From NCBI GenBank assembly GCA_903879715.1, contig CAIRMR010000064.1, positions 1 to 56,452 of the forward strand: a DNA stretch of 56,452 nucleotides, read 5' to 3'. The position numbers and the translations under genes are program-made. The DNA is from an uncultured Bacteroidales bacterium (GTDB taxonomy: Bacteria; Bacteroidota; Bacteroidia; Bacteroidales; UBA4417). The first letter of the stretch is position 1. Each line of letters opens with the position of its first letter. The notes under the pieces are model-generated. The model was not told where the DNA came from, ran no database searches, and saw only the letters and a program-made list of their open reading frames with translations. Below, piece by piece: positions 4,539 through 50,747 of this stretch.

Positions 4539-4553
4539 GCTTTCCGTTTTAAA

Positions 4554-7406: not shown

Positions 7407-7425
7407 GTCGGACAAAATTATGCTG

Positions 7426-7433: not shown

Positions 7434-7440
7434 AATAAGA

Positions 7441-7466: not shown

Positions 7467-7500
7467 GTAATACATTAAGATGAAAAACTTAAGATGAAAA

Positions 7501-7902: not shown

Positions 7903-7934
7903 TTATTCTCTTAGATATAGTATAGCTTACTAGT

Positions 7935-10097: not shown

Positions 10098-10357
10098 TGT
10101 GTTTGTTACATTTTTTACAGTCTGTTATGGCAGAAAATTCATCCCATAACCTTGATGACCAAATAACAAACAATATGCCTTATTAATTTACACTTTGATT
10201 ATCAAATACATACACCACTAATAAATCAAGTTCATTTAAAGATCTGTCCCATTTTGAAAAAAAGAAACCTTTTGTTGAACTCTTTTGAAAAATAATGTGA
10301 AACAAATGGTGTTTTGGCCACACTAAGTCAGCCATAAACTAATGGGGAGTTTAAAAA

Positions 10358-11086: not shown

Positions 11087-11885
11087 TTGGAAAATCAAGG
11101 GTTTTCACATCTGAAATATAATTCTGCACAGCAGCAACAATATCTTCGCTCAGGTTCATGTATCGGCGCAGGAATCTCGGGGAGAACTCCATTGTTATAC
11201 CCAGCATATCATGTAAAACCAGTACCTGTCCATCAACGCCCTTTCCTGCACCAATGCCGATAATCGGAATTTTTGCATTCCTGGCTACTTCTTCTGCCAG
11301 GCCTGCAGGTATTTTTTCAAGCACTATACCAAAACATCCAGCCTTTTCGAGTAGGCGAGCATCCTCCACAAGTTTCCGTGCTTCCTTTTCTTCAGTGGCA
11401 CGTACCACATAGGTTCCGAATTTATGAATGGATTGTGGTGTTAATCCAAGGTGTCCCATTACAGGGATTCCGGCAGAAAGTATTCGTTCGACAGATTCAA
11501 TAATCTCAACACCTCCTTCTAATTTAACAGCATCCGCTCCTGATTCTTTCATGATGCGGATGGCTGATGAAAGAGCTTCTTTCCAATTGCCCTGATAGGT
11601 TCCGAATGGCATATCTACAACAACGAATGCCCTATGGACAGCTCTAACCACAGATGAAGCATGATAAATCATGTTATCCAGTGTTATAGGCAAGGTGCTG
11701 CTAAAACCTGCCATTACATTAGAAGCCGAATCGCCAACCAATATTATGTCAACTCCTGCCTTGTCAAGCAATCGGGCCATGGAATAATCGTAACCTGTTA
11801 GCATTGATATCTTTACACCTTTATGTTTCATCTCCTGAAGAACATGGGTGGTAACCTGCGACACAACTCCTGGTTTGGTTATCAT
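11067..11885 (-). CDS. panB: 3-methyl-2-oxobutanoate hydroxymethyltransferase
   Basis: The first committed enzyme of pantothenate (vitamin B5/CoA) synthesis: transfers a hydroxymethyl group from 5,10-methylene-tetrahydrofolate to 3-methyl-2-oxobutanoate to give ketopantoate. The 272-aa length is normal. Hallmarks are the N-terminal [20 protein letters not shown], the metal/substrate motif [35 protein letters not shown] and the C-terminal [20 protein letters not shown]. The next gene overlaps its 3' end. No panC or panD is in the window. The ATG chosen gives the family's normal N-terminus. Confidence 0.97.
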
Positions 11886-12500
11886 GGATAACGATATTTA
11901 TGTTTATTGTTTTTTATGGTTCCGGTATCGAAAACCGGCCTATTCTTCAAAAATGTTAGCTACTAAGAAGCGAACAAAATTACAAAGAATTACTATTAAA
12001 CGGCTAAAGAAAACGTAGCCTGTTAAAAGGTGTTTCTATCAAAAATCTGAAAAATCAACTGTTCTAACTGTCAATAGTCCGTTAATATATTCCAAACGAT
12101 TAATTATCAGTAAGATATGAAATTTAGGCTTTGCGCCTTAAAATGTTGACATTCTGTGCTTTAACACTTTGCGTCCTTGCGGTTAATAAAAAAAATACCG
12201 GAGTATTGAACTGTTACACACACACTAAAATGCCAAAAAACCCGATTTCTGCCGTTTTGTCAGCAACACAATTCAGTCTGACAATGCGAAATCTTCACTA
12301 ACAATACATCCTTAGCATGCTCAGATCACTTTACATATATCTCTGTTTTACTGACTTTTACAATATTCTATAATACAACTCTACGTTTTCCGTATACATC
12401 TATTCCAAATAATTATTAATACTGAGACATCAATGGCATAATGATTGAAACAGGACCCATGTCTACAAAAAAAATGATAACTGTAAAAAATCAAAATATA
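11886..12500. other. intergenic region between divergent panB and dnaK
   Basis: No gene is visible. A small hairpin (CCGGT/ACCGG, about 11925-11938) lies in the panB leader, and a minus-strand TAnnTTTG-type element (11975-11982) could be the panB promoter about 90 bp upstream. Around 12131-12185 is the phrase TTTGCGTCCTTGCGGTTAA, a fragment type often seen between genes in Bacteroidota. No CIRCE-like heat-shock operator was found upstream of dnaK. Confidence 0.5.
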
Positions 12501-14408
12501 ATGGGAAAAATAATTGGTATTGATCTTGGAACTACTAACTCATGCGTTTCTGTAATGGAAGGTAACGAACCGGTAGTTATCCCTAACAGTGAAGGGAAAC
12601 GCACTACCCCTTCGATAGTTGCTTTTACCGAGAATGGCGAACGTAAAGTAGGTGATCCGGCCAAAAGGCAATCGATCACCAATCCAACCAAAACGGTTTC
12701 GTCGATCAAACGGTTTATGGGTGAAACCTACGACAGGGTCACAAAAGAAATAAAACGCATGCCTTTTACCGTAGTTAAAGGTGATAACAACACAGCACGT
12801 GTTAAAATTGATGACAGGACTTATACTCCACAGGAAATTTCAGCCATCATTTTGCAGAAAATGAAAAAAACGGCTGAAGATTATCTGGGTCAAGCTGTAA
12901 CGGAAGCTGTTATTACAGTTCCTGCTTATTTCAGCGATTCGCAGCGTCAGGCAACTAAAGAAGCGGGTGAAATTGCCGGTCTGGTTGTAAAACGTATCAT
13001 CAATGAGCCTACAGCAGCGGCACTGGCTTACGGATTGGATAAAAAACATAAAGATATAAAGGTGGCAGTTTATGACCTTGGTGGTGGAACTTTCGATATT
13101 TCAATCCTTGAATTAGGAGAAGGCGTATTCGAAGTAAAATCAACCAATGGAAATACACACCTGGGGGGTGATGATTTTGATCACCGTATTATTGACTGGT
13201 TAGCTGACGAATTCAAAAAAGATGAAGGTATTGATCTTCACAAAGATGCAATGGCAATGCAGCGATTAAAAGAAGCTGCTGAAAAAGCCAAAATTGAACT
13301 TTCAAGTTCAACATCCACTGAAATAAACCTTCCTTATATTATGCCGGTTGATGGAATGCCGAAGCATTTAGTACGGACCTTGACCAGAGCAAAGTTTGAA
13401 CAACTTATTGATGACTTGGTTCGCGATACGATTGAACCTTGCCGCAATGCCATGCGCGATGCTGGTCTCACCAATGCCGACATTGATGAAGTAATCCTGG
13501 TTGGTGGATCAACACGTGTACCTGTAATTCAGAAAGCGGTTGAAGATTTCTTTGGCAAAACGCCTTCAAAAGGAGTAAATCCTGACGAAGTAGTTGCTAT
13601 TGGCGCTGCTATACAGGGCGGTGTACTTTCAGGTGAAGTAAAAGATGTGTTATTGCTTGATGTTACCCCACTTTCATTAGGTATCGAAACGTTAGGCGGT
13701 GTAATGACTAAACTTATTGAATCGAATACAACCATACCTACCCGTAAATCGGAAACCTTCAGTACAGCATCAGATAATCAGCCTTCGGTTGAGATTCATA
13801 TTTTGCAGGGCGAGCGCCCGATGGCAACAGGAAATAAGAGTCTTGGCCGTTTCCATCTTGATGGCATTCCACCGGCAATGCGTGGTATCCCACAGGTTGA
13901 AGTTACTTTCGATATTGATGCCAACGGAATTCTTCATGTTTCAGCTAAGGATAAAGGAACAGGTAAATCACAGCAGATCCGTATCGAAGCATCTTCGGGA
14001 CTTACCGACGCTGACATCAAACGAATGAGAGAAGAGGCTGAGGTTAACGCTGAAGCAGACCGTAAAGCCAAAGAAGAAATAGACAAAATAAACACGGCTG
14101 ATTCATTGATCTTTCAGACAGAACGCCAGTTGAAAGAATTTGGCGATAAACTTCCGGCTGATAAAAAAGAACCCATTGAGCAGGCACTGAACAAACTTCG
14201 TGAAGCACACAAAAATCGTGATATTGCCGGAATTGACAGTTCGATGGCCGAATTAAACAGTGTATGGCAGGCTGCAAGTGAAGAAATGTATAAAAATACT
14301 CAGGAAGCAGGTCAACCAGGTGCTGAACAACAAAGCCAACCAGGTCCCGATCAGTCTAAACCTTCCGATCAGGAAGTTACTGACGTAGACTTTGAAGAGG
14401 TAAAATAA
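12501..14408 (+). CDS. dnaK: molecular chaperone DnaK (Hsp70)
   Basis: ATP-dependent cytosolic chaperone that binds unfolded peptides and cycles with DnaJ and GrpE. It has 635 aa, normal for the family. The nucleotide-binding domain starts [20 protein letters not shown] and contains the second phosphate loop [14 protein letters not shown] and the adenosine motif [14 protein letters not shown]. The linker [19 protein letters not shown] leads into the substrate-binding domain, and the tail ends in the typical acidic DVDFEEVK. The ATG at 12501 is chosen because [10 protein letters not shown] is the universal start; 20 more codons are open upstream but are not conserved. No dnaJ or grpE is adjacent. 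A strong terminator follows. Confidence 0.98.
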
Positions 14409-14427
14409 TCATTCCTCATTATATCTC

Positions 14428-14466
14428 AGAGGCTGTATCTTTTTAAAAGCTACAGCCTCTTTTTTA
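14428..14466 (+). terminator. intrinsic terminator after dnaK
   Basis: A 10-bp stem (AGAGGCTGTA / TACAGCCTCT) with a 13-nt loop followed by TTTTTT, 19 bp after the dnaK stop codon. Confidence 0.9.
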
Positions 14467-14580
14467 TTCACTTCATCCAATTCGGCTATAATATTAATTT
14501 ATTAATGAACAATATGATTTTCAATTAAAAAAAAGATAATATTTGTACCCCCAATTAAAAATCATTAAAATCTAATCATC

Positions 14581-17500
14581 ATGAAAAAAACTTTACTTTT
14601 TAAATTTATTGCATTCAGCCTTTTTGCACTTTTAAGTGTGAGAATGGTGAGCGCGCAAGTATCTTTACCTCATTATGACGGTTTCGATTATACCGTTACT
14701 CAAGCGTTAACAATTCAAACCGGTTACTCTGTTAATAGTGCAAGTTCAGATGACATATTAATTGCGAATGGAAATCTTTCAACAGATGGATTATCAGCCT
14801 CAACTGGAAATAAAATTACGTTTGCAGGAGTAGGTACTGACGTTGCAAAAGCTGTCGTTACTCAGACTTCAGGCACTGTCTTTTATTCATTTATGATGAA
14901 TGTAACTAATTTAGGCAGTCTGAACGCAACCGGAGGATATTTTACAGGTTTTGGACAAAATACGACTACGTTTGGAGCCACTGTTTGGACCGGTCTCGAT
15001 GGTACAGGATACAAAATCGGAATAAATCCGAAAACATCTACTTCCGTAAATATGGTTTGGGCTAGTGGAACACAAACACTGAATAGTACAGTATTTGTCG
15101 TTGTTTCTTATGAATTTGTAACTAACACTGGCAATGATATTGTAAATATCTGGGTTAATCCAAGTTCATCAACTTTTGGAGGAGCAACAGCGCCTGCCGC
15201 TTCAGCAACCGCAACAAACCTGACAGGAACTGATTTAACTGGTATTTATCAGGTATTTATCCGCCAGGATAGCGATACAGAAACTCCAACTATGGAAATG
15301 GATGAACTTAGAATCGGAACAAGCTGGGCTGATGTTACGCCTGCGTCAGCAGTTGCAGATGTAACAGCACCTTCATTCACAGCTATTCCTACTGATGGAG
15401 ATATTGATGTAGCTATAAACGCGCCAATAGTTTTAACTTTTGACGAAGCTATCCGCAATATTGATGATTCTGAAATTATTGATGCCAATGTAGCTGCATT
15501 GCTTACTTTAAAAGAAACCGATGCTGCTGGTGCTGATGTGGCTTTTACCGCATCTATTGATGCTGATAAAAAAATAATTACCGTTACACCTGCTGCTGAT
15601 TTTAAAAACAGCCAGGTTTATTATGCCGCTATCTCACCTGTTGAAGATGCTGCCAATAATGCTACTGAAGTATCAAGCATGACTTTCACAACAATTGCAT
15701 CAAGTGCAGCTTCCATTTCAGATGTAGCCATTACTGAAACCGCACCCTATTATGCAGGAGATGACGTTACAATAACATGGACTTCATCCAATGTTACTGA
15801 TGTAAAAATAGAAGCATGGATACCCAGCGAAAACATATGGAATGAATTGTTTGCAACAACTCCATCGGATGGTACCGAAACATTTACTATTCCTGCAGAT
15901 GCCCAATATTCTGCAGCTTATAAAATACGTGTTACAGATGTTGCCAACGCATTGGTTACTTCCGAAAGCAGCGTTTTCACTGTAATTGCTGTTGTTAACG
16001 ACCTTTTGGCATTAAGAGCTCAGCCCACAGGAGCATTTGTTAAATATACCGGTATTGCCACTGTTACTTTTGCAAGAACAACACGCAACCAGAAATATAT
16101 TCAGGATGCAACGGCAGCTGTGTTAATAGATGACAATACAACTGCGCCAGGATTTATTACCGGAACCTATGCTATTGGTGACGGGATTACCAATGTAGTT
16201 GGTAAGATTGTTTTATATGGTGGCCTTATCGAGTTTACTCCTACAGCTATTACAGGTGAGCCTGCTACCGGAATTGAAATACTTCCTGAAGTTCGCACTC
16301 TTTCAAGTCTGACTTCTGCTGATCAATGCAAACTGATTAAAATTGAAAATTTTTCATTTAAAACGCCTCGGACATTTGTTAAATCGCTTACTTACGCCAT
16401 TGATGGATACGATAGTCTTGCGATCGCATTTAGAACTGTTTTTGCGGAATCTGACTATATTGGCGGCCAGGCACCAGTTGGCCTGATTTCATCAATCGTT
16501 CTGGTTGGACAGTACAACACCCAAATGCAAATCACAGCCCGTTCGTGGTCAGATATGATAATACCAACCGCAGTTACAGTTACTTCACCTGTTGGAGGAG
16601 AATCCTATGTACAAGGTTCAACCCAAAACATTACCTGGACAACTACTAATTTTACAGGAGATGTTAAAATAGAACTAACAGGTTCAAATCCATCGGTAAT
16701 TGTTGCTTCAGTAGCTAATACAGGCAGTTATACCTGGGATATCCCTGAATCACTTGCAGTTGCTTCAGATTTTAAGGTTATGATATCCGATGCTGTTGAT
16801 GGAGATCCTATAGGTGAAAGCGCTGCAGCGTTTTCAATCACTGAAAAACCTTTTGTAACTCCAGCACTTGTTATTACTGAAATCATGTATACTTCACCGG
16901 ATGTTTCTGCCAAACAGGAATGGGTAGAACTATACAACAATGGCACAACTTCTGTTGACATGGGAGGTTTTTATATACTGGATTCCGATGCACTTCATAA
17001 AGCTGATCCGATTGTTCTTCCGGCCGGTGCCGTACTAGCTCCAGGTGAATATTACACTATTGAAACCAGTGATGATGGTAAGCCGGAACTTTTCCCATTT
17101 GTACCTGATTTTGTTAGCATAAAATTCAATTTTGGAAAAGCTGACGAAGTAAAACTTTTTCATTCAAACGGACAGCTGATTGATTCGGTTAAATACGACT
17201 GTGTAGCCCCATGGCCTACAAGCCCTAACGGAGGAGGCTCGTCACTTACTCTTTGTGATCCTAATCTGGATAACAGCCTGGCAAGCAGTTGGTCTGCTTC
17301 GCTTGACGAATTCATAACGCTTCAGTCAACTACAATATTGGCTACACCCGGCAGTGGCTGCGTTTTACATACCGCGGTTGCACCTAAATTGCAGAGCGGA
17401 ATTTCTGTTTATCCTAATCCAACCAGTGACAATCTGTACATTTCGAATCCTGTAAATGAGCAGCTTGAAATCACAGTATTATCCGCAACAGGAAAACCTG

Positions 17501-17631
17501 TAAAGTCAATGCAAGCTAAGCAGGGTATTACTTCAGTTGATTTATCTGATCTGCCAAAAGGTATTTACATGGTAAAAATGCAGAATAAAACCAGCAGGAA
17601 AACACAAACGCAAAAAGTTGTAGTCAGGTAA
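14581..17631 (+). CDS. large secreted multidomain T9SS cargo protein with lamin-tail domain
   Basis: A 1016-aa exported protein with a signal peptide (MKKTLLFKFIAFSLFALLSVRMVSAQ). The N-terminal 230 residues look like a concanavalin-type beta-sandwich. An Ig-like SbsA/Big_5-type domain follows (PSFTAIPTDGDIDVAINAPI, residues about 260-370), then a repeat of the type found in bacterial surface proteins (TWTSSNVTDVKIEAW and SPVGGESYVQGSTQNITWTT). A DUF5689/OB-like segment (LLALRAQPTGAFVKYTGIA) sits between them. A lamin-tail domain lies near residues 760-890 (LVITEIMY...EWVELYNNGTTSVDMGGF). The C-terminal 75 residues are a Por sorting domain (SVYPNPTSDNLYIS...GIYMVKMQNK...KVVVR). No catalytic residues are recognised; extracellular adhesion or a nuclease/phosphatase accessory role are both possible. 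Confidence 0.85.
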   Translation: MKKTLLFKFIAFSLFALLSVRMVSAQVSLPHYDGFDYTVTQALTIQTGYSVNSASSDDILIANGNLSTDGLSASTGNKITFAGVGTDVAKAVVTQTSGTVFYSFMMNVTNLGSLNATGGYFTGFGQNTTTFGATVWTGLDGTGYKIGINPKTSTSVNMVWASGTQTLNSTVFVVVSYEFVTNTGNDIVNIWVNPSSSTFGGATAPAASATATNLTGTDLTGIYQVFIRQDSDTETPTMEMDELRIGTSWADVTPASAVADVTAPSFTAIPTDGDIDVAINAPIVLTFDEAIRNIDDSEIIDANVAALLTLKETDAAGADVAFTASIDADKKIITVTPAADFKNSQVYYAAISPVEDAANNATEVSSMTFTTIASSAASISDVAITETAPYYAGDDVTITWTSSNVTDVKIEAWIPSENIWNELFATTPSDGTETFTIPADAQYSAAYKIRVTDVANALVTSESSVFTVIAVVNDLLALRAQPTGAFVKYTGIATVTFARTTRNQKYIQDATAAVLIDDNTTAPGFITGTYAIGDGITNVVGKIVLYGGLIEFTPTAITGEPATGIEILPEVRTLSSLTSADQCKLIKIENFSFKTPRTFVKSLTYAIDGYDSLAIAFRTVFAESDYIGGQAPVGLISSIVLVGQYNTQMQITARSWSDMIIPTAVTVTSPVGGESYVQGSTQNITWTTTNFTGDVKIELTGSNPSVIVASVANTGSYTWDIPESLAVASDFKVMISDAVDGDPIGESAAAFSITEKPFVTPALVITEIMYTSPDVSAKQEWVELYNNGTTSVDMGGFYILDSDALHKADPIVLPAGAVLAPGEYYTIETSDDGKPELFPFVPDFVSIKFNFGKADEVKLFHSNGQLIDSVKYDCVAPWPTSPNGGGSSLTLCDPNLDNSLASSWSASLDEFITLQSTTILATPGSGCVLHTAVAPKLQSGISVYPNPTSDNLYISNPVNEQLEITVLSATGKPVKSMQAKQGITSVDLSDLPKGIYMVKMQNKTSRKTQTQKVVVR

Positions 17632-17658
17632 AACCTAACACAATCCTTATTATTTTCG

Positions 17659-17708
17659 AACTGCTGATCCTTTCTTCACGTGATGAAAGGATCAGCAGTT
17701 TGTCTTTT
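17659..17708 (+). terminator. strong intrinsic terminator
   Basis: A 16-bp perfect inverted repeat from AACTGCTGATCC to GGATCAGCAGTT with a short loop and a T-rich 3' flank, 28 bp after the stop of the large T9SS protein gene. It is nearly symmetric and may be processed rather than only terminating. Confidence 0.85.
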
Positions 17709-18375
17709 TAAGATAAACAACAATAACTAAAATTGCTATGGAACTGGCTAAATATGGTAATTTAAAACCTGACATTTGAACAATTTGAGTATAGCTTCTG
17801 AGTAGATTATTTGATGGTAACAATTCATATTTTCGATAGTGTCTAAAATAAAATAAGTACAATTGGCATTATATATTTCGATTTTTTCTGTGTATAGTTC
17901 TCAATCCATAACTCAAACCAACACAATATAAAAGCACAACTACCTTATATTAAAGCTGTTAAAAAACAGTTTCCGTAAAACAACCGCAATCAATTTTACA
18001 CTCCTTTATTCAATAGTATTCTCCCAACTTCTCCTCTAGCCTTACCAAGTCAATTGCGGAAGTGCACCTTAGTAATTTATCGGATACTAGGCGTAAAAAC
18101 GGAAACTTAAACAATAAATCAATACAGTTACACACATTCATTTACCCAACATGATTATTTTTACTATTAGAAATTACACTACATATACACTTCATTTTAA
18201 AAATCAAACAGGCTAAAGCACACATCATTTAATACTTATTAAATTATATATCAATTTGTTATCTGTATTTCATGCACTACACAACCAATAAGGATCTATA
18301 ATCTCACACTATAACACTAAAACAGTATGATAAAATAAATGTAATTTAGCTCTCTATTTAAATCTAGCTAAGGAT
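17709..18375. other. long AT-rich intergenic region with nested inverted repeats
   Basis: I see no gene in this stretch. It holds two nested inverted repeats: AGTTTCCGT at 17968 with ACGGAAACT at 18099, and CCGCAAT at 17984 with ATTGCGG at 18053. This could be the remnant of a small mobile repeat or an RNA structure. The promoter of the downstream phosphate gene run should lie in the 3' part, but I could not point to a clear TAnnTTTG. Confidence 0.4.
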
Positions 18376-19023
18376 ATGTTCAATTTCAAACACGCTAAAA
18401 AGTCAATAGATATAATTGAGCAATTTCTTAGTCTGATAGATCAAGGCAGCCTGATTTTTAAAGATGGGGTTAAAAATTATTTACAGGGCAACCACGAGAA
18501 TTTCCAGGATAATCTTAAAACCCTATCCAATCTGTCATCCGAGGCTGACATAAAAAAAAGAGAGATTGAAAATATATTGTATACCCAATCGCTAATGCCC
18601 CAGCTCAGAGGAGACATTTTAAACCTTCTCGAAGAGTTAAACAACATTATCGATTTAGCTAAAACCAACCTATTTGAATTTGATGTCGAAGTTCCTTTTA
18701 TACCTAGTGAGTTAAACCAGGATTTGATAAAGCTGACAGAATTATCAGTATTAGCAATTGACTCCTTAATTCCTGCTGCACGAGATTATTTTGTAAACCC
18801 AGACTCCGTAAAAGAGAAACTTCACAGGGTTTATCTCTATGAAAAAGAAACAGATAAGCTTGCCAGTTCAATCAAAAGAAGAGTTTTTCAAACCATACCC
18901 CAATTAAAATTAAGTGAAAAATTCCATTTAAGATATTTTACACTTCATATTGAAATATTATCGGATGTAGCAAAAAACGCGGCCGACCTGCTTTCAATAA
19001 TGGCATTAAAACGAGCAATTTAA
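18376..19023 (+). CDS. DUF47 / PhoU-like phosphate transport accessory protein
   Basis: A 215-aa, all-helical cytosolic protein. It has the long charged helices and the pattern of the DUF47 (PhoU_div) family: FKHAKKSIDIIEQFLSLI at the start, LHRVYLYEKETDKLASSIKR around residue 155, and HLRYFTLHIEILSDVAKNAADLLSI at the end. In many bacteria DUF47 genes sit directly before pit transporter genes and the protein modulates the transporter. Here the pit gene starts only 6 bp after the stop codon, which supports that role. It is the first gene of a nine-gene run in one direction. Confidence 0.88.
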   Translation: MFNFKHAKKSIDIIEQFLSLIDQGSLIFKDGVKNYLQGNHENFQDNLKTLSNLSSEADIKKREIENILYTQSLMPQLRGDILNLLEELNNIIDLAKTNLFEFDVEVPFIPSELNQDLIKLTELSVLAIDSLIPAARDYFVNPDSVKEKLHRVYLYEKETDKLASSIKRRVFQTIPQLKLSEKFHLRYFTLHIEILSDVAKNAADLLSIMALKRAI

Positions 19024-43011: not shown

Positions 43012-43096
43012 GCCCGAATGGTGAAATAGGTAGACACGAAGGACTTAAAATCCTTTGGCCATTGCGGCCGTGCCGGTTCGATTCCGGCTTCGGGTA
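43012..43096 (+). tRNA. tRNA-Leu (TAA), integration site of the element
   Basis: An 85-nt class II tRNA with acceptor stem GCCCGAA/TTCGGGT (the first pair is G-T), anticodon loop CTTAAAA (anticodon TAA), a long variable arm GGCCATTGCGGCC and T-arm CCGGTTCGATTCCGG. CCA is not encoded. Its 3' end overlaps the left attachment repeat and the gene remains complete. Confidence 0.96.
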
Positions 43097-43100
43097 CAAA
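43083..43100 (+). repeat. left attachment site (attL core)
   Basis: TCCGGCTTCGGGTACAAA, the T-arm and acceptor 3' end of tRNA-Leu, repeated exactly at the right end. A TTCG two bases upstream is also shared. Confidence 0.9.
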
Positions 43101-43314
43101 TTGAAGAGGTTAATAAACCATTTAATAGACTGTTTTACAGTAAGTTAAATAGCTTATTAGCCTTTTTTGTTTTATGCTTTTTGTCAACCGTTTGTCAATC
43201 TGATTATTTTAAGGCTATTCTTAGTCTGTTTTTCGCTTACCTCCTCATGACAATAATTCATGTTCAAGTAATGCAGTTTTATACAAATCTTGGGCAATCG
43301 CAATTAATTATAAA

Positions 43315-43860
43315 TTACCAGTTATCTTTTTTGCTAATATTTTTTGATGTCATAAATGAATTTAGTGATTCGATCAATTGATTTGTCTGATTAAATGCAG
43401 ATGTTTTTATCTCATTCCATTGTTTATTGGGTATGCTCATTGTTCCGCATGCGGCCTTTTCATTCATCATATCACCACCGCTACCTACTCCACTATTAGC
43501 AAATTCGTGATAAAGATCACATATTTCATATTTGTACCTACCCTCTTTTATCATCAGTTTAATGGTATAACGAACTAATCCATAATCATGAATACCCATT
43601 AGGTGTGCATAAACACGAAATGCACCCTTCCCCACAATCTTCCCTGATTCTTTATCCCTTAACTGGATGACTTCTTTTGAATCATTATATGTCTTAGCAA
43701 ACCACTCATTAGCCTTAACAAACAGTTCATTTTGGGTGACACTATCAACTTTTATCACATCTGTAAATAGAATCTTATTTGTTTCTTTATCTATTGGCCA
43801 ATTTTGAGAGTGAGCAGAAAAAGAAATCAAAATAGCGAGAACTGTAAATAGCTTTTTCAT
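43315..43860 (-). CDS. DUF4468-type exported protein (cargo gene)
   Basis: A 181-aa exported protein with a signal peptide (MKKLFTVLAILISFSAHSQ). The segment VTQNELFVKANEWFAKTYNDSKEVIQLRDKESG and the following GKGAFRVYAHLMG region match the DUF4468 domain (TBP-like fold) widespread in Bacteroidota; its function is unknown. The start is set at the signal-peptide Met, nine codons inside the longest open frame. It is the gene closest to attL and belongs to the element by position, though its composition is host-like. Confidence 0.75.
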   Translation of the reverse strand: MKKLFTVLAILISFSAHSQNWPIDKETNKILFTDVIKVDSVTQNELFVKANEWFAKTYNDSKEVIQLRDKESGKIVGKGAFRVYAHLMGIHDYGLVRYTIKLMIKEGRYKYEICDLYHEFANSGVGSGGDMMNEKAACGTMSIPNKQWNEIKTSAFNQTNQLIESLNSFMTSKNISKKDNW

Positions 43861-43980
43861 TTGTTTTGATTTTTGGGGTTCCCTCAAAGTTCAACAAATA
43901 TTTATTATGTATCCATGTGAAAAGTGAATTTATTTTCAAAAATAAGAATAGGATAAATTCACTTAGTTAAATCATAACAA

Positions 43981-44493
43981 TTATTGTTTATAGGGATAGC
44001 AATTTGCATCTGCAATTGAATATTCACCTGAAGAGGTTGCAGTTTTTATTAATACCTCATCAATATAAATATTTACTGTAACTCGTTTTGACCCTTCCGT
44101 GTTTTGCCCTGTAATATAAGCAAAGTCAGTACCTTTTAAAGTAACTTTTTTTTCCCAATAATTCCTTCCCTTTTCGTGATCCATACCTCCGGTTGCATTA
44201 TTATACCCTACATCAAAACTTGCTCCGCTTACTTTGTATGTAATTTGATAGGTTTTTTCTTTTGCTTCAGCTGTTTTGGATTGATCCATTAAATCCATCG
44301 CTCCAAATAATACGAGGATAAACAAAGCTATAATTGCCGCCCATTTTTTCCCATCTTTAAGAATCCCAATAAAAGAAAAAATCAAACCTAAAATTATCGG
44401 TATTGTAATATAGAATTTAGGAAGAGATACTGAAAAAATTGCTAAAACAAGGGCAATAATTCCAAACGTGATACTTTTATTTTGCTTTTCCAT
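43981..44493 (-). CDS. membrane-anchored protein with MmpS-like C-terminal domain (cargo gene)
   Basis: A 170-aa protein. Residues 10-70 form about three membrane segments (IALVLAIFSVSLPKFYITIP, IILGLIFSFIGIL, WAAIIALFILVLFG), like DUF4190-type small membrane proteins. The exported C-terminal domain (YQITYKVSGASFDVGYNNATGG ... DFAYITGQNTEGSKRVTVNI) resembles MmpS-like beta-sandwich domains. The pair of membrane anchor plus beta domain and the neighbouring exported protein suggest an envelope function, but no role is known. A promoter element lies 43 bp upstream of the start. Confidence 0.7.
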   Translation of the reverse strand: MEKQNKSITFGIIALVLAIFSVSLPKFYITIPIILGLIFSFIGILKDGKKWAAIIALFILVLFGAMDLMDQSKTAEAKEKTYQITYKVSGASFDVGYNNATGGMDHEKGRNYWEKKVTLKGTDFAYITGQNTEGSKRVTVNIYIDEVLIKTATSSGEYSIADANCYPYKQ

Positions 44494-44535
44494 TTTTAAA
44501 AATGTTTGTAATGATTTTTACATATTATAATTAAA

Positions 44536-44543
44536 CAAATATA
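44536..44543 (-). promoter_or_regulatory. -7 promoter element for the membrane cargo gene
   Basis: Reads TATATTTG on the minus strand, 43 bp before the start codon. Confidence 0.5.
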
Positions 44544-44639
44544 AGAAACAAATACGTTTAATTTTTCATTGAAATATTTTTTTTATTGAAAACCAGATCA
44601 ATCGGCCCGGCTCTATGTATATTAAAAAACAACGAGAAT

Positions 44640-44970
44640 TTGAATACTAACTTTTACTAACAGTTGAATGCTAAGTTTTGCTAAGTTATGAAGTTCAAGT
44701 TTTCTCCAGTTCACACTTGAATAAAATGTTTTGAATGTTAAGTTTTGTTAGGTTCTGACTATTAACAAAAGTTAACTTTCAATTTCATGTTTTAGCCTGT
44801 GCTATCCCTTTTTTATAGTGTAAGAAAACTATTCGCCTGGCTCTTTATTCTAAGATAATTCACTGTTATTTCACTGTTCTATCACAGATAACGCTTCTTT
44901 TTATAGTGTTCAGTTCGTACAGTTTTGGGCTGCCTATAACTGTTCTATTACAGTTCTATTACTGTTAATG
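44640..44970. repeat. iteron-like repeats in a 500-bp non-coding region of the element
   Basis: The 27-bp unit TTGAATGCTAAGTTTTGCTAAGT... occurs at 44664 and, with four changes, at 44731; a weaker copy starts at 44640, and an inverted TTAACAAAAGTTAACTT lies at 44763-44779. A second set follows: CACTGTTATTTCACTGTTCTATCAC (about 44861-44885) and ACTGTTCTATTACAG (from 44939), with more CTGTT copies to 44966. There is no gene in 44494-44996. A replication origin, transfer origin or partition site are all possible. Confidence 0.6.
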
Positions 44971-44996
44971 GGTGTTTATTCTTGATTAATTCTTGA

Positions 44997-45248
44997 TTAA
45001 TCCCATCCGCCATGGAACGGCTCGCCTTTGTCGATGGGTACGGTTTCAACTTTCGGCAAAACATACGGTATCAATTTTACTAAAATCTCGATCCTGTCTT
45101 TATTATCCAGTTTATTTAAATTAACTGGGAGGTTTTCCAACTCTTCAAACATGATGTTTTTTAATACTGTCCGAAGTTCTTTCGTTAACTTGTTTTCAGT
45201 CCCTGGCTGCCTGCCTCCGGTTTTCGGTGTTCCTTTTATACGTGCCAT
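44997..45248 (-). CDS. small mobile-element-associated protein
   Basis: An 83-aa cytosolic protein. It begins MARIKGTPKTGGRQPGTENK, the basic GGRxxGxxNK pattern shared by DUF5681-type and phage/element small proteins, and continues with a helical region rich in Leu (ELRTVLKNIMFEELENLP...IEILVKLIPYVLPKVE). Its function is unknown; a DNA-binding role is plausible from the basic start. It is in the same transcript as the two genes before it, starting 20 bp after the 44-aa gene. Confidence 0.75.
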   Translation of the reverse strand: MARIKGTPKTGGRQPGTENKLTKELRTVLKNIMFEELENLPVNLNKLDNKDRIEILVKLIPYVLPKVETVPIDKGEPFHGGWD

Positions 45249-45268
45249 AATTTCTAAATTAATCTGTT

Positions 45269-45403
45269 TTAGATATTCCCATAAAGCAGAGAAAGTATTT
45301 TTTGCGCTGCTCTGGTATCGCCTTTTATTGCTTTGTCTATTAATTTTTGAGCTTCAATTTCAACTTCGGGGAGGTATGTTTTTACTTTCGGTTTAGTTTT
45401 CAT
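45269..45403 (-). CDS. 44-aa small protein
   Basis: A short open frame beginning MKTKPKVKTYLPEVEIEAQK and ending LLYGNI, with a helical amphipathic middle part (IEAQKLIDKAIKGDTRAAQKI). It starts 3 bp after the stop of the polymerase-like gene and ends 20 bp before the next gene, fitting the operon exactly. It is similar in character to other tiny proteins in Bacteroidota elements. I cannot assign a function and it may not be real, but it fills what would otherwise be a 158-bp hole. Confidence 0.5.
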   Translation of the reverse strand: MKTKPKVKTYLPEVEIEAQKLIDKAIKGDTRAAQKILSLLYGNI

Positions 45404-45406
45404 AAA

Positions 45407-46765
45407 TCAAGTGTTTATCAAATATTCCAGTTCATCTAATTTGCTGCTTTCGGGTTCAACTCTTTTATACTTGTCGAAAAGTCGAATTATATTTTCTGTG
45501 TCTGTCAACTTTCCCCGCCTCCGGGTCGCTGCACTTATGAAAGCATTTTCAAGTTCTTTTAATCGCCCTGTTGCTGGTCTGATAGGTAAATTATAGTAGT
45601 CTTGTGCTGTCATTACCTCCGCTTTTGGCTCGGCTGGCTTTTCTGCCCTCTCTGGCTGTATCTGCTTAGGCTGTGGCATACTTTGTGGAGGTGGTGGTGT
45701 GTTGATCGTTTCTCTCTGCTTCATGTTCAATTTATAGAATGTAAATTCCTGATCCAATATCGCCCGGAATATCTGTTCTGCCTGGTACCTGTCGGATTGT
45801 TTAACAATAACTTCATCATGTACCGATAAAAAGGGAATCCCGGCATGTATTAATTTGCGCCATACTTTACGCATTACTTTTACCTCTGTCGTTTGCAGTA
45901 ACCATGCAACATTGGAATAAGGTTTGCCGACGTTGTGAGGGTTCCTCGGTTCGGGTTGTGCTTTATATTGATTTATCCATGTAATCCAATCAGCATCGCC
46001 AAACATCGCAGCAAGTGAGTTATTCGGCTTTGCGAATAGTATTTCAAAGAATCGTTTTTTGCCTTCATCCCTGGTAAGTAATCCGGCTTTAGTTTGCAGT
46101 TTAATATAAATATCTTCGCCTGAATCAATCCATTTTGAATATTCATTTACGCCAATAGAATCCTTTAATAGTTTACCTAAAAGTAACGGCTGCATGGTGG
46201 TAACATCAAGTCCGATAGTCGGTAAACCATCAAGTAATATATTCGGTCGGTATGGCCTGTGAAAACTGCTAACAGGTGTATGAACACGCCCGGCAAACTC
46301 ATCAACTGTAAAAAAGTAATCCGGATAGTTATTTTTGTGTTTCAGGAAAAAAGTAAAGTAATCTGTTTGGGGTGCATCTTCAGGCAATGAAACACATTTT
46401 AAATATTCCTTCATTGTCCGGCTAATCGGATCTAAATTATTTTGCTTTGGCTTGAGCAATGTCAGATTAATTGCACCGGGTTTCAATACGCAATACATGA
46501 ACATTGTGTTTCCGTTCGGCAACTGTTCAACTGATACGGATATTTCCCCGGCATCAATCAGTTTATTTATTTCGTGCTTGATGTTATACTTTGGGAAAGT
46601 AAAGAAACGCTCAGAAATTTCATTCTTTGGAATATGCACCGGGTTCCTGTCATTCTCGCCCCTCAGCCTGTTCTTCATAAATTGCTTGGTGCGAATGAAA
46701 GTAACAAACTGCTCACTTATGGTGCCTTGGCTCCTGGCTATTGAATATGTCGTTTGTGTACTCAT
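45407..46765 (-). CDS. family A DNA polymerase-like protein of the element
   Basis: A 452-aa protein with family A palm/fingers motifs in the right order and no sign of 5' nuclease or 3'-5' exonuclease domains. Residues 159-193 give GRVHTPVSSFHRPYRPN and then motif A as GLDVTTMQPLLL (D187 as the first metal ligand). A motif B-like R-x3-K lies at R232-K236 (TRDEGKKRFFEILFA). Motif C with the O2-like helix is LLQTTEVKVMRKVWRKLIHAG leading to FLSVHDEVIV (D317), the VHDE block of PolA. The first 150 residues are unrecognised, and a Pro-rich linker (residues 355-378) leads to a charged tail. I infer replication of the element. It starts beyond nine heptamer repeats. Activity is unproven because the palm is small and divergent. 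Confidence 0.7.
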   Translation of the reverse strand: MSTQTTYSIARSQGTISEQFVTFIRTKQFMKNRLRGENDRNPVHIPKNEISERFFTFPKYNIKHEINKLIDAGEISVSVEQLPNGNTMFMYCVLKPGAINLTLLKPKQNNLDPISRTMKEYLKCVSLPEDAPQTDYFTFFLKHKNNYPDYFFTVDEFAGRVHTPVSSFHRPYRPNILLDGLPTIGLDVTTMQPLLLGKLLKDSIGVNEYSKWIDSGEDIYIKLQTKAGLLTRDEGKKRFFEILFAKPNNSLAAMFGDADWITWINQYKAQPEPRNPHNVGKPYSNVAWLLQTTEVKVMRKVWRKLIHAGIPFLSVHDEVIVKQSDRYQAEQIFRAILDQEFTFYKLNMKQRETINTPPPPQSMPQPKQIQPERAEKPAEPKAEVMTAQDYYNLPIRPATGRLKELENAFISAATRRRGKLTDTENIIRLFDKYKRVEPESSKLDELEYLINT

Positions 46766-46784
46766 TTCTCTATGTTTTTTAACT

Positions 46785-46893
46785 GGTGCAATGGTGCAAC
46801 TACTCTATACATATATTGCACCTTGCACCTATGGTTGCAAGGGTGCTAATACATACTTTATCCGGTGCAATGCACTGGTGCAAAGTGGTGCAA
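46785..46893. repeat. cluster of nine GGTGCAA-type heptamers, candidate iterons or operator
   Basis: GGTGCAA occurs at 46785, 46793, 46864, 46877 and 46887; its inverse TTGCACC at 46816 and 46823; and near copies GGTTGCAA at 46833 and GGTGC at 46842. All fall in the 132-bp gap between the polymerase-like gene and the ATPase gene. The density is far beyond chance for a heptamer. Confidence 0.8.
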
Positions 46894-46897
46894 TTCA

Positions 46898-48040
46898 TTA
46901 CTGTAATTCATTGTTATACTGTTGATTAATTCGCCAATTCTTATCTGCACCTTGCAAAATCATATTGTATGCGTTCATATCGCTAAACTCATCTTTTGCA
47001 GTTCGTTCTTTACACGTCTTTTCTATCATTATTTTATGCAATGCTTTGACGTAATCATATGAAACTTGACCGCCAAAAATAGTTTTGCATAGTTCCCAAA
47101 GTTTTTTTATACGTTCCCTTTTCTTTACAATTTCTTTTGCTTCCGGACTATTTACACCGCATCCGACGTGATAACCTTTTTCCTTATCATATTTGAACAT
47201 TAACTTTTGAATATCACCATTGCCGGCATACCTGAGCATCTTAGGCTCTATATATGAAGTATCACCTTCGCTCTTAACTGATATTATCCCTCCGCTTTTA
47301 CGTTGGCATTGGCTCCCAAAATGGCCTCTTTCCTTGTCGCCTCCTGGATTGGTATGCACAATGATAAAAACGGCTGTATGGTATTTTATGGCCAGTTCTT
47401 CAAAGTATTTTATTGCAGCGTTTGAGGTTTCGGGGTTGTTCACATCGGCAATGTAATCTGCACCTCCATCAATCCAAATTGAATGGATCCCGCCAAACTG
47501 ATTTAATGCAGCCTCACAAATTCCAGTTGTTACCTCTGCATATTGATTTATATCTAATTGCCGGATATTATAGGAAAGGTAGTGAGCACAAGTATTTAAA
47601 CCTGCTCTTCTTAAAATACCTTTATAGTTCTTTTGGTGCTTGTGCCTGGCCTGTTCTGTATCGCAATGAATAACGGCCTTATTTTTATCATTCCGTAATA
47701 CCTCAACTCCTTCAAAGCCATCAATTACGGTTCCGGTTTCACTTATTGCCCCCGCAATCAATACATTTTGAAACGCACTTTTTCCGCTTTTACTGGCTCC
47801 GCTTATTGTGAATATATCTTCAATTGCGGCAATAATTTCACCGTTTATTTTTAATACCGGATCCGGTTCGGGAATGTCCGTACTTTCCGTAATACGCAAA
47901 TAATCAAAGCCTAAAAGTGTTTTTTCTTCCGGTTCCTGGGTTTCGTCCTCAAAAAAACCACTATCTTTGTACTGTGCTGCAAGGCTTTCGAGGTCGTTCC
48001 CGTCCCTGGGTTCGGCCTCGCTTCGTTTAGGACTATTCAT
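46898..48040 (-). CDS. RepA-like AAA-family ATPase
   Basis: A 380-aa protein of the RecA/RepA (AAA_25) type common on Bacteroidota mobile elements. The N-terminal 45 residues are charged and disordered. Walker A is GASKSGKS at residues 81-88, Walker B is SIWIDGGADYI (D191), and a sensor-like segment VHTNPGGDKERGHFGSQ (residues about 228-244) matches the family pattern. RepA of plasmid RSF1010 is a hexameric 5'-3' helicase, which makes a replicative helicase or loader role plausible for this element. The tail (from about residue 300) is helical. It overlaps the HTH gene by 8 bp, so the two are translationally coupled. Confidence 0.85.
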   Translation of the reverse strand: MNSPKRSEAEPRDGNDLESLAAQYKDSGFFEDETQEPEEKTLLGFDYLRITESTDIPEPDPVLKINGEIIAAIEDIFTISGASKSGKSAFQNVLIAGAISETGTVIDGFEGVEVLRNDKNKAVIHCDTEQARHKHQKNYKGILRRAGLNTCAHYLSYNIRQLDINQYAEVTTGICEAALNQFGGIHSIWIDGGADYIADVNNPETSNAAIKYFEELAIKYHTAVFIIVHTNPGGDKERGHFGSQCQRKSGGIISVKSEGDTSYIEPKMLRYAGNGDIQKLMFKYDKEKGYHVGCGVNSPEAKEIVKKRERIKKLWELCKTIFGGQVSYDYVKALHKIMIEKTCKERTAKDEFSDMNAYNMILQGADKNWRINQQYNNELQ

Positions 48041-48290
48041 GTTTCATAAGTTTTTGAATGTCCGACATACGATAACGCACTTTCCCGCCGATTTTGATTT
48101 TTGTCAAATAGCCTAATTTGTCCCATCGGTAAAGGGTTGACAAATCAACGTCAAACATGGCTCCGGCTTCTTTTGGTGAAACAAGCCTTTCTGGATCTAT
48201 TGTTTGTGGAGAAATACGGCTTTGAACCGTGTTAGCTATCATGTTTACGAGGTCTTCGATAGCAATAGACGAAAGAATAACATTTGTCAT
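48033..48290 (-). CDS. excisionase-like helix-turn-helix protein
   Basis: An 85-aa DNA-binding protein. Its C-terminal half has a MerR/excisionase-type winged HTH (HTH_17): SPKEAGAMFDVDLSTLYRWD followed by the wing KIGGKVRYRMSDIQKLM. Such proteins act as directionality factors for tyrosine integrases or as repressors of element genes. A promoter element (minus-strand TACATTTG at 48305-48312) lies 15 bp before the start codon. The ATPase gene begins within its last codons. Confidence 0.88.
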   Translation of the reverse strand: MTNVILSSIAIEDLVNMIANTVQSRISPQTIDPERLVSPKEAGAMFDVDLSTLYRWDKLGYLTKIKIGGKVRYRMSDIQKLMKHE

Positions 48291-48304
48291 AACTGTTTTT
48301 TTGA

Positions 48305-48312
48305 CAAATGTA
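48305..48312 (-). promoter_or_regulatory. -7 promoter element for the HTH-ATPase operon
   Basis: Reads TACATTTG on the minus strand, matching TAnnTTTG. It probably drives the HTH, ATPase and perhaps polymerase-like genes. Confidence 0.5.
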
Positions 48313-48431
48313 AATCTGCAAAAATGTAGATACTTTTCAGGTACTTAGTATCTGTGTTAACATGGAACTAATATCTTAATAATCAAATATAAGCAATAAC
48401 AAAAAATAAATTTTTAGGTACTGAAAAACTA

Positions 48432-49103
48432 TTAATCTACCTGTTTATTTAGCCATATTGCAACCTCCGCCCTATTCTCTGAAATAGTCAATACAATTTC
48501 TTTCCAGCGTGTACGGTCTTTGTGTGGAAAACTTTTAACCTCTACAGGAATGTTAAATTTGAAATCCTTCCAGCTTCTATAGAATACTTGGCCGGCTGTT
48601 TTGAGTTTATATTTATTTTTTCCAAACTGCATAATTCCTGCTTTGTCAGTTGATTCTATAAACTGTTTTTCAATACCAATGCACTGCATTATCTTATATG
48701 TAATACCATACCAATACTCTGCGAATTGTTCCGCCTGTGCGCTCTGTGGAGGTAATTTAACGGTTTCACAGGCCAATACATACGCCCCAAAATCATGCAA
48801 CGGCTTTAATAAATCTGTAATATTTTCATTGTTCAATACTCTGCCATCGGTAAAATTATCAATCTTTATAATGTTTAAATGATAGTATTCGCTTCCATCG
48901 TCATCCTTATTAATTCCCCATGAATAATCTTTTGAATTTACATACTTATTGAGTGCTTCATAAGCGGTTGATAACTCATCGTAGAAGTCTTTTAAGCTAT
49001 CCCCGCTCTTTTCCGCTTCATTTCTGAAATACCCTGCTCTTGTTTTTGGCGTAACCTCAAACAACGCTGTTAATAATATTTGTTTTGCTTCGTGTAGTTT
49101 CAT
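48432..49103 (-). CDS. 223-aa protein of unknown function in the element
   Basis: A cytosolic protein of mixed helix and strand content. It is notable for a basic, aromatic C-terminal region (FKFNIPVEVKSFPHKDRTRW...VAIWLNKQVD) and two Tyr/Trp-rich segments (QFAEYWYGITYKIMQCIGI and SKDYSWGINKDDDGSEYY). I recognise no family. It lies between integrase and HTH gene on the same strand, a position often taken by regulators or defence genes in Bacteroidota elements, but there is no motif that would support either. The start MKLHEAKQILL is the only good one. Confidence 0.65.
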   Translation of the reverse strand: MKLHEAKQILLTALFEVTPKTRAGYFRNEAEKSGDSLKDFYDELSTAYEALNKYVNSKDYSWGINKDDDGSEYYHLNIIKIDNFTDGRVLNNENITDLLKPLHDFGAYVLACETVKLPPQSAQAEQFAEYWYGITYKIMQCIGIEKQFIESTDKAGIMQFGKNKYKLKTAGQVFYRSWKDFKFNIPVEVKSFPHKDRTRWKEIVLTISENRAEVAIWLNKQVD

Positions 49104-49213
49104 GTTGGTATTGTTATTTTGTGATAAAAGTGATTTTAGTGAACGTGAAAAACAACATTTTTTTATGCTTTTCTTTGGGTTTCAAAGTTTTTTAGATAGT
49201 CTTTCATAGTTGA

Positions 49214-50542
49214 TTAATCTAATAGGTTTACCAATTCTTTTTTTTGATTCTCATCTATCTGCCTGTAACGTGCAAACGCTTTACTCCCTGCCTTATGGCC
49301 TGACAATTCACTGACTTGGTTAGGATCTTTAACTTTGTTGTAAAGGTTCGCAATAAATGACCTCCGGCAAAGGTGGCTACTGGCAATTTCATTCAATGGC
49401 CGTTTTTCTTCTTTGCGTGTAGTTTGATTCAATACAGTTACCATCCGTGTTAATCCTGCCAGTGTGAAAATATCTTTGATAGCAATATTATATTTCTGTT
49501 CAAGGATTAACGGCAACAACTGTTTACCTTCCAAATTTGCGTACAATGATAGTATTTCATTCGCTTTTTTATTCAGTGGTACACGCACTGTAACCGGCCT
49601 GTCATCCTTTGTTTTTCGTGCTATGTATTCAATGGCTCCGTTAATTACATTATCTTTTGTGAATCCGTATAAATCAGATACACGGCAACCAATCATACAT
49701 TGAAATACAAATATATTTCTTTGATCGGCTAACTTTGGAGTGGCTGACAAATCAAAAATATACAGGTCGTTTATTTCTTTCAAAGTAAGGTAGTAAGGAG
49801 TGCCATAAATAGCGGGTGTTTCGTCATATCCTTTGAATGGATTCTTTGTAATTAGTCCCTCTTCAATGCACCAATTAATATACGTGCGTAATTTTGTCAT
49901 ATTCACATTTATAGTGTTCAGTCCTCTTTGCTTTGGCTTCCGGCTCTCTTTTACTGCTTCATATATTTGCGGGTATTTTTTTGATAGTTCAGGTTCTGAT
50001 AACATAAACTTTTCAAAATTCCTGATCGTTTCAGTGTTTAAAGTATCAAAACTAATTTTATAGGTAGGTTCTATCTTTTGTTTATACAGTTCAAACCGCT
50101 GCAGTGATCTGAACACAACCATATAATTATTCTTTCTTACCTGTGATATTTTCCAGATACTCAAAAAATGTTTAAAGGATTCAAAGAAAGATAATTCCGT
50201 TACTGGTTTTGTAGTGATAAACTTTTCAGGAAAGTTCCACATTTCAATAGCTACTTGTAACCAATCCCCTTGCATTGTTTTTTTGTCTGCATTGGTAAAG
50301 CTATCAATAATATAATTACTAAGCTCTGATAGGCTCTTTTGTAGCTTAACAAGGTCTTTTTGCTCCTGGGTTTCAATGCGTGGTATTGTGATCAAACCAC
50401 CGGCAAACCTTTTAGGATTAACCATTAATCCGGTCTTACCTCTGTATATCAAATCACGCCCACCAATGAATCGAATGTATATTTCTGCTTTCCCTGTGAT
50501 CTTATCTACTTTTGTAGAGAGTGAATAATTGATCTTTGCCAT
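49214..50542 (-). CDS. tyrosine-type site-specific integrase
   Basis: A 442-aa integrase with an N-terminal arm-binding domain (residues 1-85, NYSLSTKVDKITGKAEIYIRF), a SAM-like core-binding domain (about 118-235) and a C-terminal catalytic domain. The catalytic set is complete: R287 in MIGCRVSDLYGF, a lysine in RKTKDDRP (about 309-312), H390 and R393 in SSHLCRRSF, H416 in ELSGHKAG and the nucleophile Y426 in ARYRQID. It lies directly inside the right attachment site and is read toward the middle of the element, as usual for tRNA-targeting elements. A promoter element lies 27 bp upstream of the start, flanked by two TGTCAACA repeats. Confidence 0.95.
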   Translation of the reverse strand: MAKINYSLSTKVDKITGKAEIYIRFIGGRDLIYRGKTGLMVNPKRFAGGLITIPRIETQEQKDLVKLQKSLSELSNYIIDSFTNADKKTMQGDWLQVAIEMWNFPEKFITTKPVTELSFFESFKHFLSIWKISQVRKNNYMVVFRSLQRFELYKQKIEPTYKISFDTLNTETIRNFEKFMLSEPELSKKYPQIYEAVKESRKPKQRGLNTINVNMTKLRTYINWCIEEGLITKNPFKGYDETPAIYGTPYYLTLKEINDLYIFDLSATPKLADQRNIFVFQCMIGCRVSDLYGFTKDNVINGAIEYIARKTKDDRPVTVRVPLNKKANEILSLYANLEGKQLLPLILEQKYNIAIKDIFTLAGLTRMVTVLNQTTRKEEKRPLNEIASSHLCRRSFIANLYNKVKDPNQVSELSGHKAGSKAFARYRQIDENQKKELVNLLD

Positions 50543-50562
50543 TTTTGAGGGTTTTATATTAT

Positions 50563-50591
50563 TGTCAACAAATATACAAATAATGTCAACA
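50563..50591. promoter_or_regulatory. integrase promoter with flanking TGTCAACA repeats
   Basis: The minus-strand element TATATTTG (50569-50576) lies between two TGTCAACA direct repeats at 50563 and 50584, 21 bp apart. They may be arm-type sites for the integrase or operators for the HTH protein. Confidence 0.5.
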
Positions 50592-50729
50592 TAAATGCAA
50601 TTTAATGAAATATTATACCTTAATTTGCAATAAATAATCAGTATGTTAATTGCTGCAATCCATTTATAATATTAGCCTGTAGCCTTATTTTATTGAAATA
50701 CTCAAAAATGACAAATTGCATAATTCGTG

Positions 50730-50747
50730 TCCGGCTTCGGGTACAAA
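50730..50747 (+). repeat. right attachment site (attR core)
   Basis: Exact 18-bp copy of the left repeat. The next bases lead straight into a terminator-like hairpin that most likely once followed the tRNA gene. Confidence 0.9.

Follow-up and report, generated by a model that had tools for sequence, protein, structure and literature searches.

The stretch between positions 43083 and 50747 of contig CAIRMR010000064.1, which comes from a Bacteroidales-like bacterium and was analysed over its full 56,452 nucleotides (the window), is an integrative element that was put into the 3' end of a tRNA-Leu gene by its own tyrosine integrase. The element encodes a minimal family A polymerase of the TV-Pol type, better read as a primase or primase-polymerase than as an autonomous replicase. 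We consider it probable that the integrated element is excised as a circle that replicates from an iteron cluster, with an AAA_25 ATPase unwinding the DNA and the TV-Pol priming it. What is new is the setting, namely the layout bounded by tRNA or tmRNA genes, the iterons, and the replacement of the primase in sister elements; the TV-Pol type itself is already known.

The element is 7.65 kb long and is bounded by 18-bp copies of the tRNA-Leu 3' end, the tRNA-Leu gene being its insertion site:

43012..43097, + strand: tRNA-Leu(taa) gene, the integration target (ARAGORN), intact and uninterrupted in loci L011 and L012
43083..43100, + strand: 18-bp attachment repeat at the tRNA 3' end
50730..50747, + strand: distal 18-bp attachment repeat, 187 bp before the integrase start

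The 18-mer TCCGGCTTCGGGTACAAA (43083-43100 and 50730-50747) was the sole exact repeat of at least 12 bp found for the tRNA end, and when 1000 windows of 100 bases were drawn at random from the same 20 kb, those overlapping the attachment sites included, 8 had a repeat of at least this length. Empty sites were identified in two genomes of the same genus. In L011 (genome G398), which was read at the sequence level and has a right flank 87% identical to that of the window, mutS, a tRNA-Gly gene and the tRNA-Leu gene are followed directly by the right flank, with the terminator-like sequence and kinase gene that lie 3' of position 50747 in the window. In L012 (G402), judged from tRNA and match positions only, the same tRNA-Gly/tRNA-Leu pair is present and the flank match begins ~60 bp behind it, while a third locus (L013) has no tRNA on its 3.8 kb. 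The limits and the empty sites together indicate that the 7.65-kb insert is real and that its ends are known, and they bear out an earlier sequence-only reading of this DNA, which had proposed a small tRNA-Leu integrative element with 18-bp repeats 7.6 kb apart.

Eight open reading frames (ORFs) of the element were scanned for families (Pfam with curated cut-offs, and PHROG). The integrase and the genes and sites proposed to act in excision and replication are:

49214..50542, - strand: tyrosine integrase, 442 aa (Phage_int_SAM_5 1.3e-11 and Phage_integrase 3.2e-8, both over cut-off)
48033..48290, - strand: HTH_17 (helix-turn-helix, HTH) protein, excisionase-like, 85 aa (HTH_17 2.8e-7, over cut-off; PHROG excisionase 5.4e-8)
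46898..48040, - strand: AAA_25 RecA-fold ATPase, proposed helicase, 380 aa (AAA_25 1.7e-4; 69% identical to the homologue in the related element L152)
46766..46897, no strand assigned: iterons, proposed origin, 132 bp between the ATPase and polymerase genes
46785, 46793, 46864, 46877 and 46887: copies of GGTGCAA
46816 and 46823: copies of TTGCACC
45407..46765, - strand: TV-Pol-type family A polymerase, 452 aa (alignment of relatives and fold)

The complete tyrosine integrase and the excisionase-like HTH protein named in the sequence-only reading are thereby confirmed, and its RepA-like ATPase corresponds to the RecA-fold AAA_25 protein, with a match below the cut-off.

The polymerase gene product (452 aa) is a minimal family A enzyme, of the TV-Pol type by the features described in PMC2579912. 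The family received its name in 2008, on the basis of proteins from bacterial mobile elements and the Sputnik virophage, and its members were predicted to be primase-polymerases (Iyer, Abhiman, Aravind; PMC2579912). The window polymerase had no Pfam polymerase match and no PDB match by sequence, and a five-row profile gave spurious PDB matches only, so the motif reading rests on the relatives and on the fold. Residue conservation was counted over 43 full-length polymerase rows, three fragment rows being dropped. R160, D187, K236, E294 and D317 are invariant (43/43) and R232 is arginine in 36 of the 43, while for the conserved fingers aspartate D218 is aligned in 3/43 rows only, the others having a gap. 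The better AlphaFold model, made from 30 rows with L152-L156 added (mean pLDDT 81.1, pTM 0.71), consists of an N-terminal winged-helix-like part, a thumb, palm and fingers (~113-340), a low-confidence linker (356-396) and a helical tail. The thumb is bi-helical, with helices 113-124 and 135-143 preceding an RRM-like palm whose two conserved aspartates, D187 and D317, are located on palm strands. The absolutely conserved arginine before the palm, R160, has short strands on either side (a beta-hairpin), and the fingers RxxxK motif (R232/K236) lies on the first fingers helix (232-243). Residues 16-93 of the model resemble a winged helix, with helices at 16-31, 47-53 and 62-71 and strands at 75-81 and 87-93. 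No exonuclease domain was matched in the 452 aa.

At E ≤ 1e-3 this model has 38 PDB matches, every one of them a family A DNA polymerase, with T7 DNA polymerase (4.5e-6) as the best. Among viral models, phage polymerases match down to 4.9e-12, and the Zamilon virophage replication protein is a fold match at E 3.9e-4, the aligned range not being shown. An earlier model from the window protein and phage homologues was poor (mean pLDDT 59.8), with KlenTaq as its best PDB match (6.6e-3) and none at 1e-3. The invariant residues and the family A fold uphold the polymerase motifs of the sequence-only reading. Pipolins and casposons are mobile elements that likewise have their own polymerase, but theirs belongs to family B and the fold here to family A. 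The sequence-only reading had further taken a family A palm on a small integrative element to be undescribed. That claim falls, and a wholly undescribed polymerase type is ruled out, by the TV-Pol description, in which these proteins occur on mobile elements from a range of bacteria, Bacteroidetes among them, and in some cases beside phage-lambda-type integrases (PMC2579912).

As a single query, the window polymerase found no relative in the genome-contig and viral-contig collections and no matching plasmid record; the ATPase and a small DUF5681-like protein found no relative in scans of the viral collection. At E ≤ 1e-3, relatives of the polymerase occur in 5 of 393 genomes of the order, and the five-row profile matches 29 of 395 genomes of the class, the window's own genome being included in both counts. 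Separately, a TV-Pol-like protein with 23-29% identity to the window polymerase over the palm is encoded on each of 41 viral contigs (L070-L110), of which many are large, and records of large uncultured phages likewise match it. The window's own genome also encodes a second, divergent member of the polymerase family (L129, G000:C103:500-15264, at 8199-9446) on a 15-kb contig with RadC-like and other genes and no integrase match, possibly a plasmid.

The heptamer GGTGCAA/TTGCACC occurs in seven copies within the 132 bp between the ATPase and polymerase genes. No 7-mer reached seven copies in 2000 mononucleotide shuffles or in 500 dinucleotide shuffles, so the heptamer repeats reported there by the sequence-only reading are real, and five other intergenic stretches of the window element show no comparable heptamer excess. 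Other elements have heptamers in the same gap between helicase and primase genes: TATGCAA in six copies in L152, GTTTACA in twelve in L154 and AACACAG in six in L155 (each 0/500 dinucleotide shuffles). Fourfold heptamers were found in L189 (TAAAGTA, 0/500), L187 (ACTATAC, 1/500) and L156 (12/500), and in L009 the repeat test covered the interval between the HTH and variable genes rather than that between helicase and primase. The heptamer sequence differs from element to element while its position between the helicase and primase genes is constant, as would be expected if the cluster were an origin acting in cis and recognised by a cognate protein, and we propose that the iteron cluster is the element's origin.

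The window element is one example of a recurring layout, in the order integrase, variable gene, HTH gene, helicase, iterons, polymerase and DUF5681-like gene. Bounded by end repeats, it occurs in tRNA-Leu, -Ala, -Lys, -Cys and -Arg genes and in a tmRNA gene. The check proposed by the sequence-only reading, a search of related genomes for this block at other tRNA genes, thus comes out in its favour. Six TV-Pol elements have such repeats at a tRNA or tmRNA gene, and in all six the distal copy lies ~115-190 bp before the integrase start:

window element: tRNA-Leu, 18-bp repeat
G027 (=L155), a metagenome-assembled genome of the same order (Bacteroidales): tmRNA 3' end, 16-bp repeats
G037 (=L009): tRNA-Ala, 70-bp repeat, no recognised helicase
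L152: tRNA-Lys, 24-bp repeat
L153: tRNA-Cys, 15-bp repeat
L156: tRNA-Arg, 19-bp repeat

The gene order in L155 is integrase, a 315-aa gene, HTH, AAA_25, polymerase, two small genes and the DUF5681-like gene. Locus L008, which ends at a contig end, has the HTH gene, a polymerase fused to AAA_25, the DUF5681-like gene and a tRNA-Val gene; the fusion (1691-3445) joins a TV-Pol-type core and an AAA_25/DnaB_C ATPase in one 584-aa chain. The genes in the variable slot, which lies between integrase and HTH, are mutually unrelated, except for those of L154 and L187. L154 has the genes of the layout up to the polymerase, although its HTH slot gave no HTH match. In the wider polymerase family, an integrase match is present on 23 of 45 fetched loci, and the integrase, HTH and polymerase genes follow the window order on one strand in 9 of the 45 (10 if L112 is counted, in which a second piece of integrase lies in between).

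An indication of what the polymerase does comes from elements in which it has been replaced. Of 386 genomes of the order, 68 encode an ATPase of this AAA_25 kind, and searching for the ATPase led to elements that keep the helicase but have a different gene where the polymerase would be. In L187, whose helicase is 63% identical to that of the window and 73% to that of L152, the polymerase's place is taken by a BT4734-like protein (PF08800 1.6e-5, over cut-off), a type listed as a family of archaeo-eukaryotic primases (AEPs) in PMC5862659. In L188, from a genome of the window's genus, the helicase and DUF5681-like protein are 54% and 62% identical to the window's, and the slot holds a protein with Zn_ribbon_16 and DUF6371; this element ends at a tRNA-Lys gene. 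A DUF6371-type protein is also encoded in L228, with 48-bp repeats at a tRNA-Arg gene. Judging from their zinc ribbon (PF21957) and aligned conserved acidic motifs, the DUF6371 proteins are probably DnaG-like; a DnaG structure match was sought for them and not found.

The replacement is most apparent between L154 and L187, which have left-flank genes in common (proteins 66-74% identical). Their DNA is 70% identical from the flank through the integrase, 80% in the HTH region and 76% in the final 270 bp of the primase gene, whereas their helicases and primase cores (TV-Pol vs AEP) are unrelated or nearly so; the right flanks are unmatched, and the DUF5681-like gene is found in L187 but not in L154. 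The helicase is exchanged as well: L152 and L153 have integrases, polymerases and DUF5681-like genes that are 74%, 70% and 72% identical, respectively, and the helicase slot holds AAA_25 in L152, DUF5906 in L153 and DUF3987 in L156. DUF5906 (D5-like) and DUF3987 are presumably helicases, which fits the slot. No earlier description of the primase-core swap was found in the open-access literature, which omits most subscription journals.

Each of two C-terminal domains is found on all three unrelated cores (TV-Pol, AEP and DnaG-like). The first tail is carried by the TV-Pols of L153, L154 and L156, the AEP of L187 and the DnaG-like protein of L228; that of the L154 TV-Pol is 68% identical to that of the L187 AEP over 90 aa (E 2.5e-39) and 71% identical to that of the L228 protein over 73 aa. 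Among 386 genomes of the order, five have this tail, once on an AEP and four times on DnaG-like proteins (three of these weak). The second tail is DUF6965 (PF22292; 3.5e-21 in L152), found on the TV-Pols of L152 and L155 and the DnaG-like protein of L188, with 38% identity between L152 and L188 over 95 aa (E 2.6e-16). DUF6965 occurs at 25 places in 22/386 genomes of the order, of which 16 are in DnaG-like ORFs (15 distinct), one is beside such an ORF, one is in a TV-Pol (G027), one belongs to an AEP-like ORF from the window's own genome, and six are in unlabelled ORFs. As a separate observation, Bacteroides phage BF1-TP2 (L151, 3962-4574) has a DUF5681 gene followed by a small gene weakly matching the DUF6965 tail (E 4.7e-4), the pair lying near an integrase. 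The window's own genome also contains another integrase-HTH-primase module (L227, G000:C7:63000-81999, at 2167-18440), in which the AEP-like core carries DUF6965 and the BREX genes brxC and pglX directly follow; in L227 a related replication module carries a defence island.

The TV-Pol is read as the element's primase because it is exchanged for primases of two other folds and keeps their tails, because its gene lies behind the helicase and the iteron cluster, and because the family member CCPol-MP of SCCmec primes DNA in vitro (PMC7581432). In the proposed mechanism, the integrase and HTH protein would excise the element as a circle, which would replicate from the iteron cluster as its likely origin. 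The AAA_25 ATPase would act as a helicase at the iterons, the TV-Pol would make primers and perhaps extend them, and the host replisome would complete replication. There is, in our judgement, about an even chance of a broader scheme, in which these elements form one family with interchangeable primases (TV-Pol, BT4734-type AEP, DnaG-like), swapped by recombination while the HTH side and a C-terminal docking domain stay constant on either side of them, and with the helicase swapped too. The TV-Pol would then be a third kind of primase, one without an OB-fold partner, and its N-terminal winged-helix-like part may replace that partner or bind the iterons.

Several observations weigh against the reading of an excising, iteron-based replicon with a TV-Pol primase. 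No excised copy was seen, and the window's own assembly holds one copy of the polymerase. The AAA_25 match of the window ATPase (1.7e-4) falls under the curated cut-off. The iterons of L153 are weak (three copies, 3/500 shuffles), L188 shows no iteron excess (three copies, 161/500 shuffles), and L154 lacks the repeat, a tRNA (within the stretch searched) and the DUF5681-like gene. No integrase lies on the fetched stretch of 22 of the 45 polymerase loci, several of these stretches ending at contig ends. Moreover, kinship of the window polymerase's own tail to the two shared tails was rejected, as it matches neither, so the tail argument covers the relatives and not the window copy.

Other explanations of the element as a whole concern how it moves. 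It may be a phage satellite, whose TV-Pol and helicase amplify it on infection by a helper and whose DUF5681-like protein aids packaging; this is possible but doubtful. Such a role is consistent with the size of the elements (6-8 kb), with the DUF5681-like gene being kept in 10 of 11 elements, with a relative in phage BF1-TP2 beside an integrase region and with the absence of a relaxase or virion gene, which the sequence-only reading had noted and which holds for the eight ORFs scanned. However, the lack of any terminase, portal or capsid-related match among the same proteins also speaks against a satellite, none of the small protein's PHROG matches has a known function, and the phage matches of its L152 homologue are mostly weak (E ~0.02). 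The DUF5681-like protein is the only candidate for a transfer or packaging role. A similarly tentative alternative is descent from NBU-type mobilizable Bacteroides elements by loss of the relaxase, the product being moved in trans or immobile. NBU-type elements have a tRNA-Leu target, an integrase, a primase gene and a relaxase, and NBU1 inserts in a tRNA-Leu gene; the window element is alike in target, integrase and primase, but no relaxase was found in it. The spread of the AAA_25 ATPases in the order is compatible with such an origin, as is the presence of a full-length integrase (380-490 aa) on 6 of 10 fetched ATPase loci (L187-L196). No oriT or relaxase was identified in the element, however, and six elements, each at a different site, have an intact integrase and repeats, which points to recent mobility.

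The remaining alternatives concern the polymerase. That the TV-Pol is the main replicative polymerase rather than a primase seems to us unlikely: although thumb, palm, fingers and both catalytic aspartates are complete and a replicative enzyme, that of T7, gives the best fold match, its slot is held in sister elements by AEP or DnaG-like proteins with tails in common, and the 452 aa contain no exonuclease domain. Far less probable still, to the point of being nearly discounted, is a host-defence (Abi-like) enzyme in a locus that is a defence island and not a replicon. Weak fold matches to Abi-P2 and DRT9 (E ~0.02) point that way, but the matches to family A are better by a factor of about a thousand, the polymerase has no PADLOC match, and its link with the integrase, HTH gene, helicase and iterons is constant. 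A replicon primed by the TV-Pol is the reading we prefer.

The elements resemble those described with the TV-Pols in having a minimal family A polymerase on mobile elements, near integrases, with members in Bacteroidetes (PMC2579912). TV-Pols were described there as stand-alone or helicase-fused, the fused form being found here in L008. The primase-polymerase role was argued in 2008 from the displacement of prim-pols beside D5-like helicases (PMC2579912), whereas the window helicase is a RecA-fold AAA_25 protein and not D5-like; in the sister elements the argument can be made more closely, with AAA_25 as the helicase. The text of that paper does not contain defined limits at tRNA/tmRNA genes, iterons or the pair of tails shared among primases, all of which are present here. 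TV-Pols are also stated never to be linked to nuclease genes (PMC2579912); a 167-aa gene in the polymerase operon of L009 (10204-10707) has a VRR_NUC match of E 0.2, below the cut-off.

According to a 2020 paper, the SCCmec enzyme, with its partner protein, was the sole TV-Pol characterised until then. PolA-SSB primases and CCPol-MP are alike in having a family A polymerase beside a helicase and a site-specific recombinase (PMC7581432 and PMC10061031). In these systems, however, an OB-fold partner gene lies between polymerase and helicase, where the window has 132 bp of iterons only, and the scope of the survey is Bacillota (PMC10061031). AEP-encoding elements (PrimPol-PV1, BT4734-like) have direct repeats, mostly at tRNA genes (14/25) and once at a tmRNA (PMC5862659). 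They are likewise integrated, with direct repeats and their own primase, but its core is unrelated to family A; the sister elements L187 and L227 have such a BT4734-like core. The element of PMC12324425 is an unrelated ocean element.

The other genes of the window element are as follows:

43315..43887, - strand: cargo, DUF4468 protein, 190 aa (PF14730 7.4e-17; phrog_4002 3e-28)
43981..44493, - strand: cargo, 170-aa protein without a family
44997..45248, - strand: small basic DUF5681-like protein (KGT), kept at this end in the elements counted above
48432..49103, - strand: 223-aa protein without a family, in a slot variable in sequence between elements

The DUF4468 gene is absent from the corresponding place in the other annotated elements, and neither the 170-aa nor the 223-aa protein has a homologue among the searched loci. 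The DUF5681 match is above the cut-off in the L152 homologue and not in the window copy.

Three unrelated primase folds may thus be used as interchangeable parts in these elements. With matched elements that have the same integrase family, helicase and tail and a different primase core, the primase prediction of 2008 becomes directly testable, and the elements offer small iteron-based replicons for Bacteroidota.

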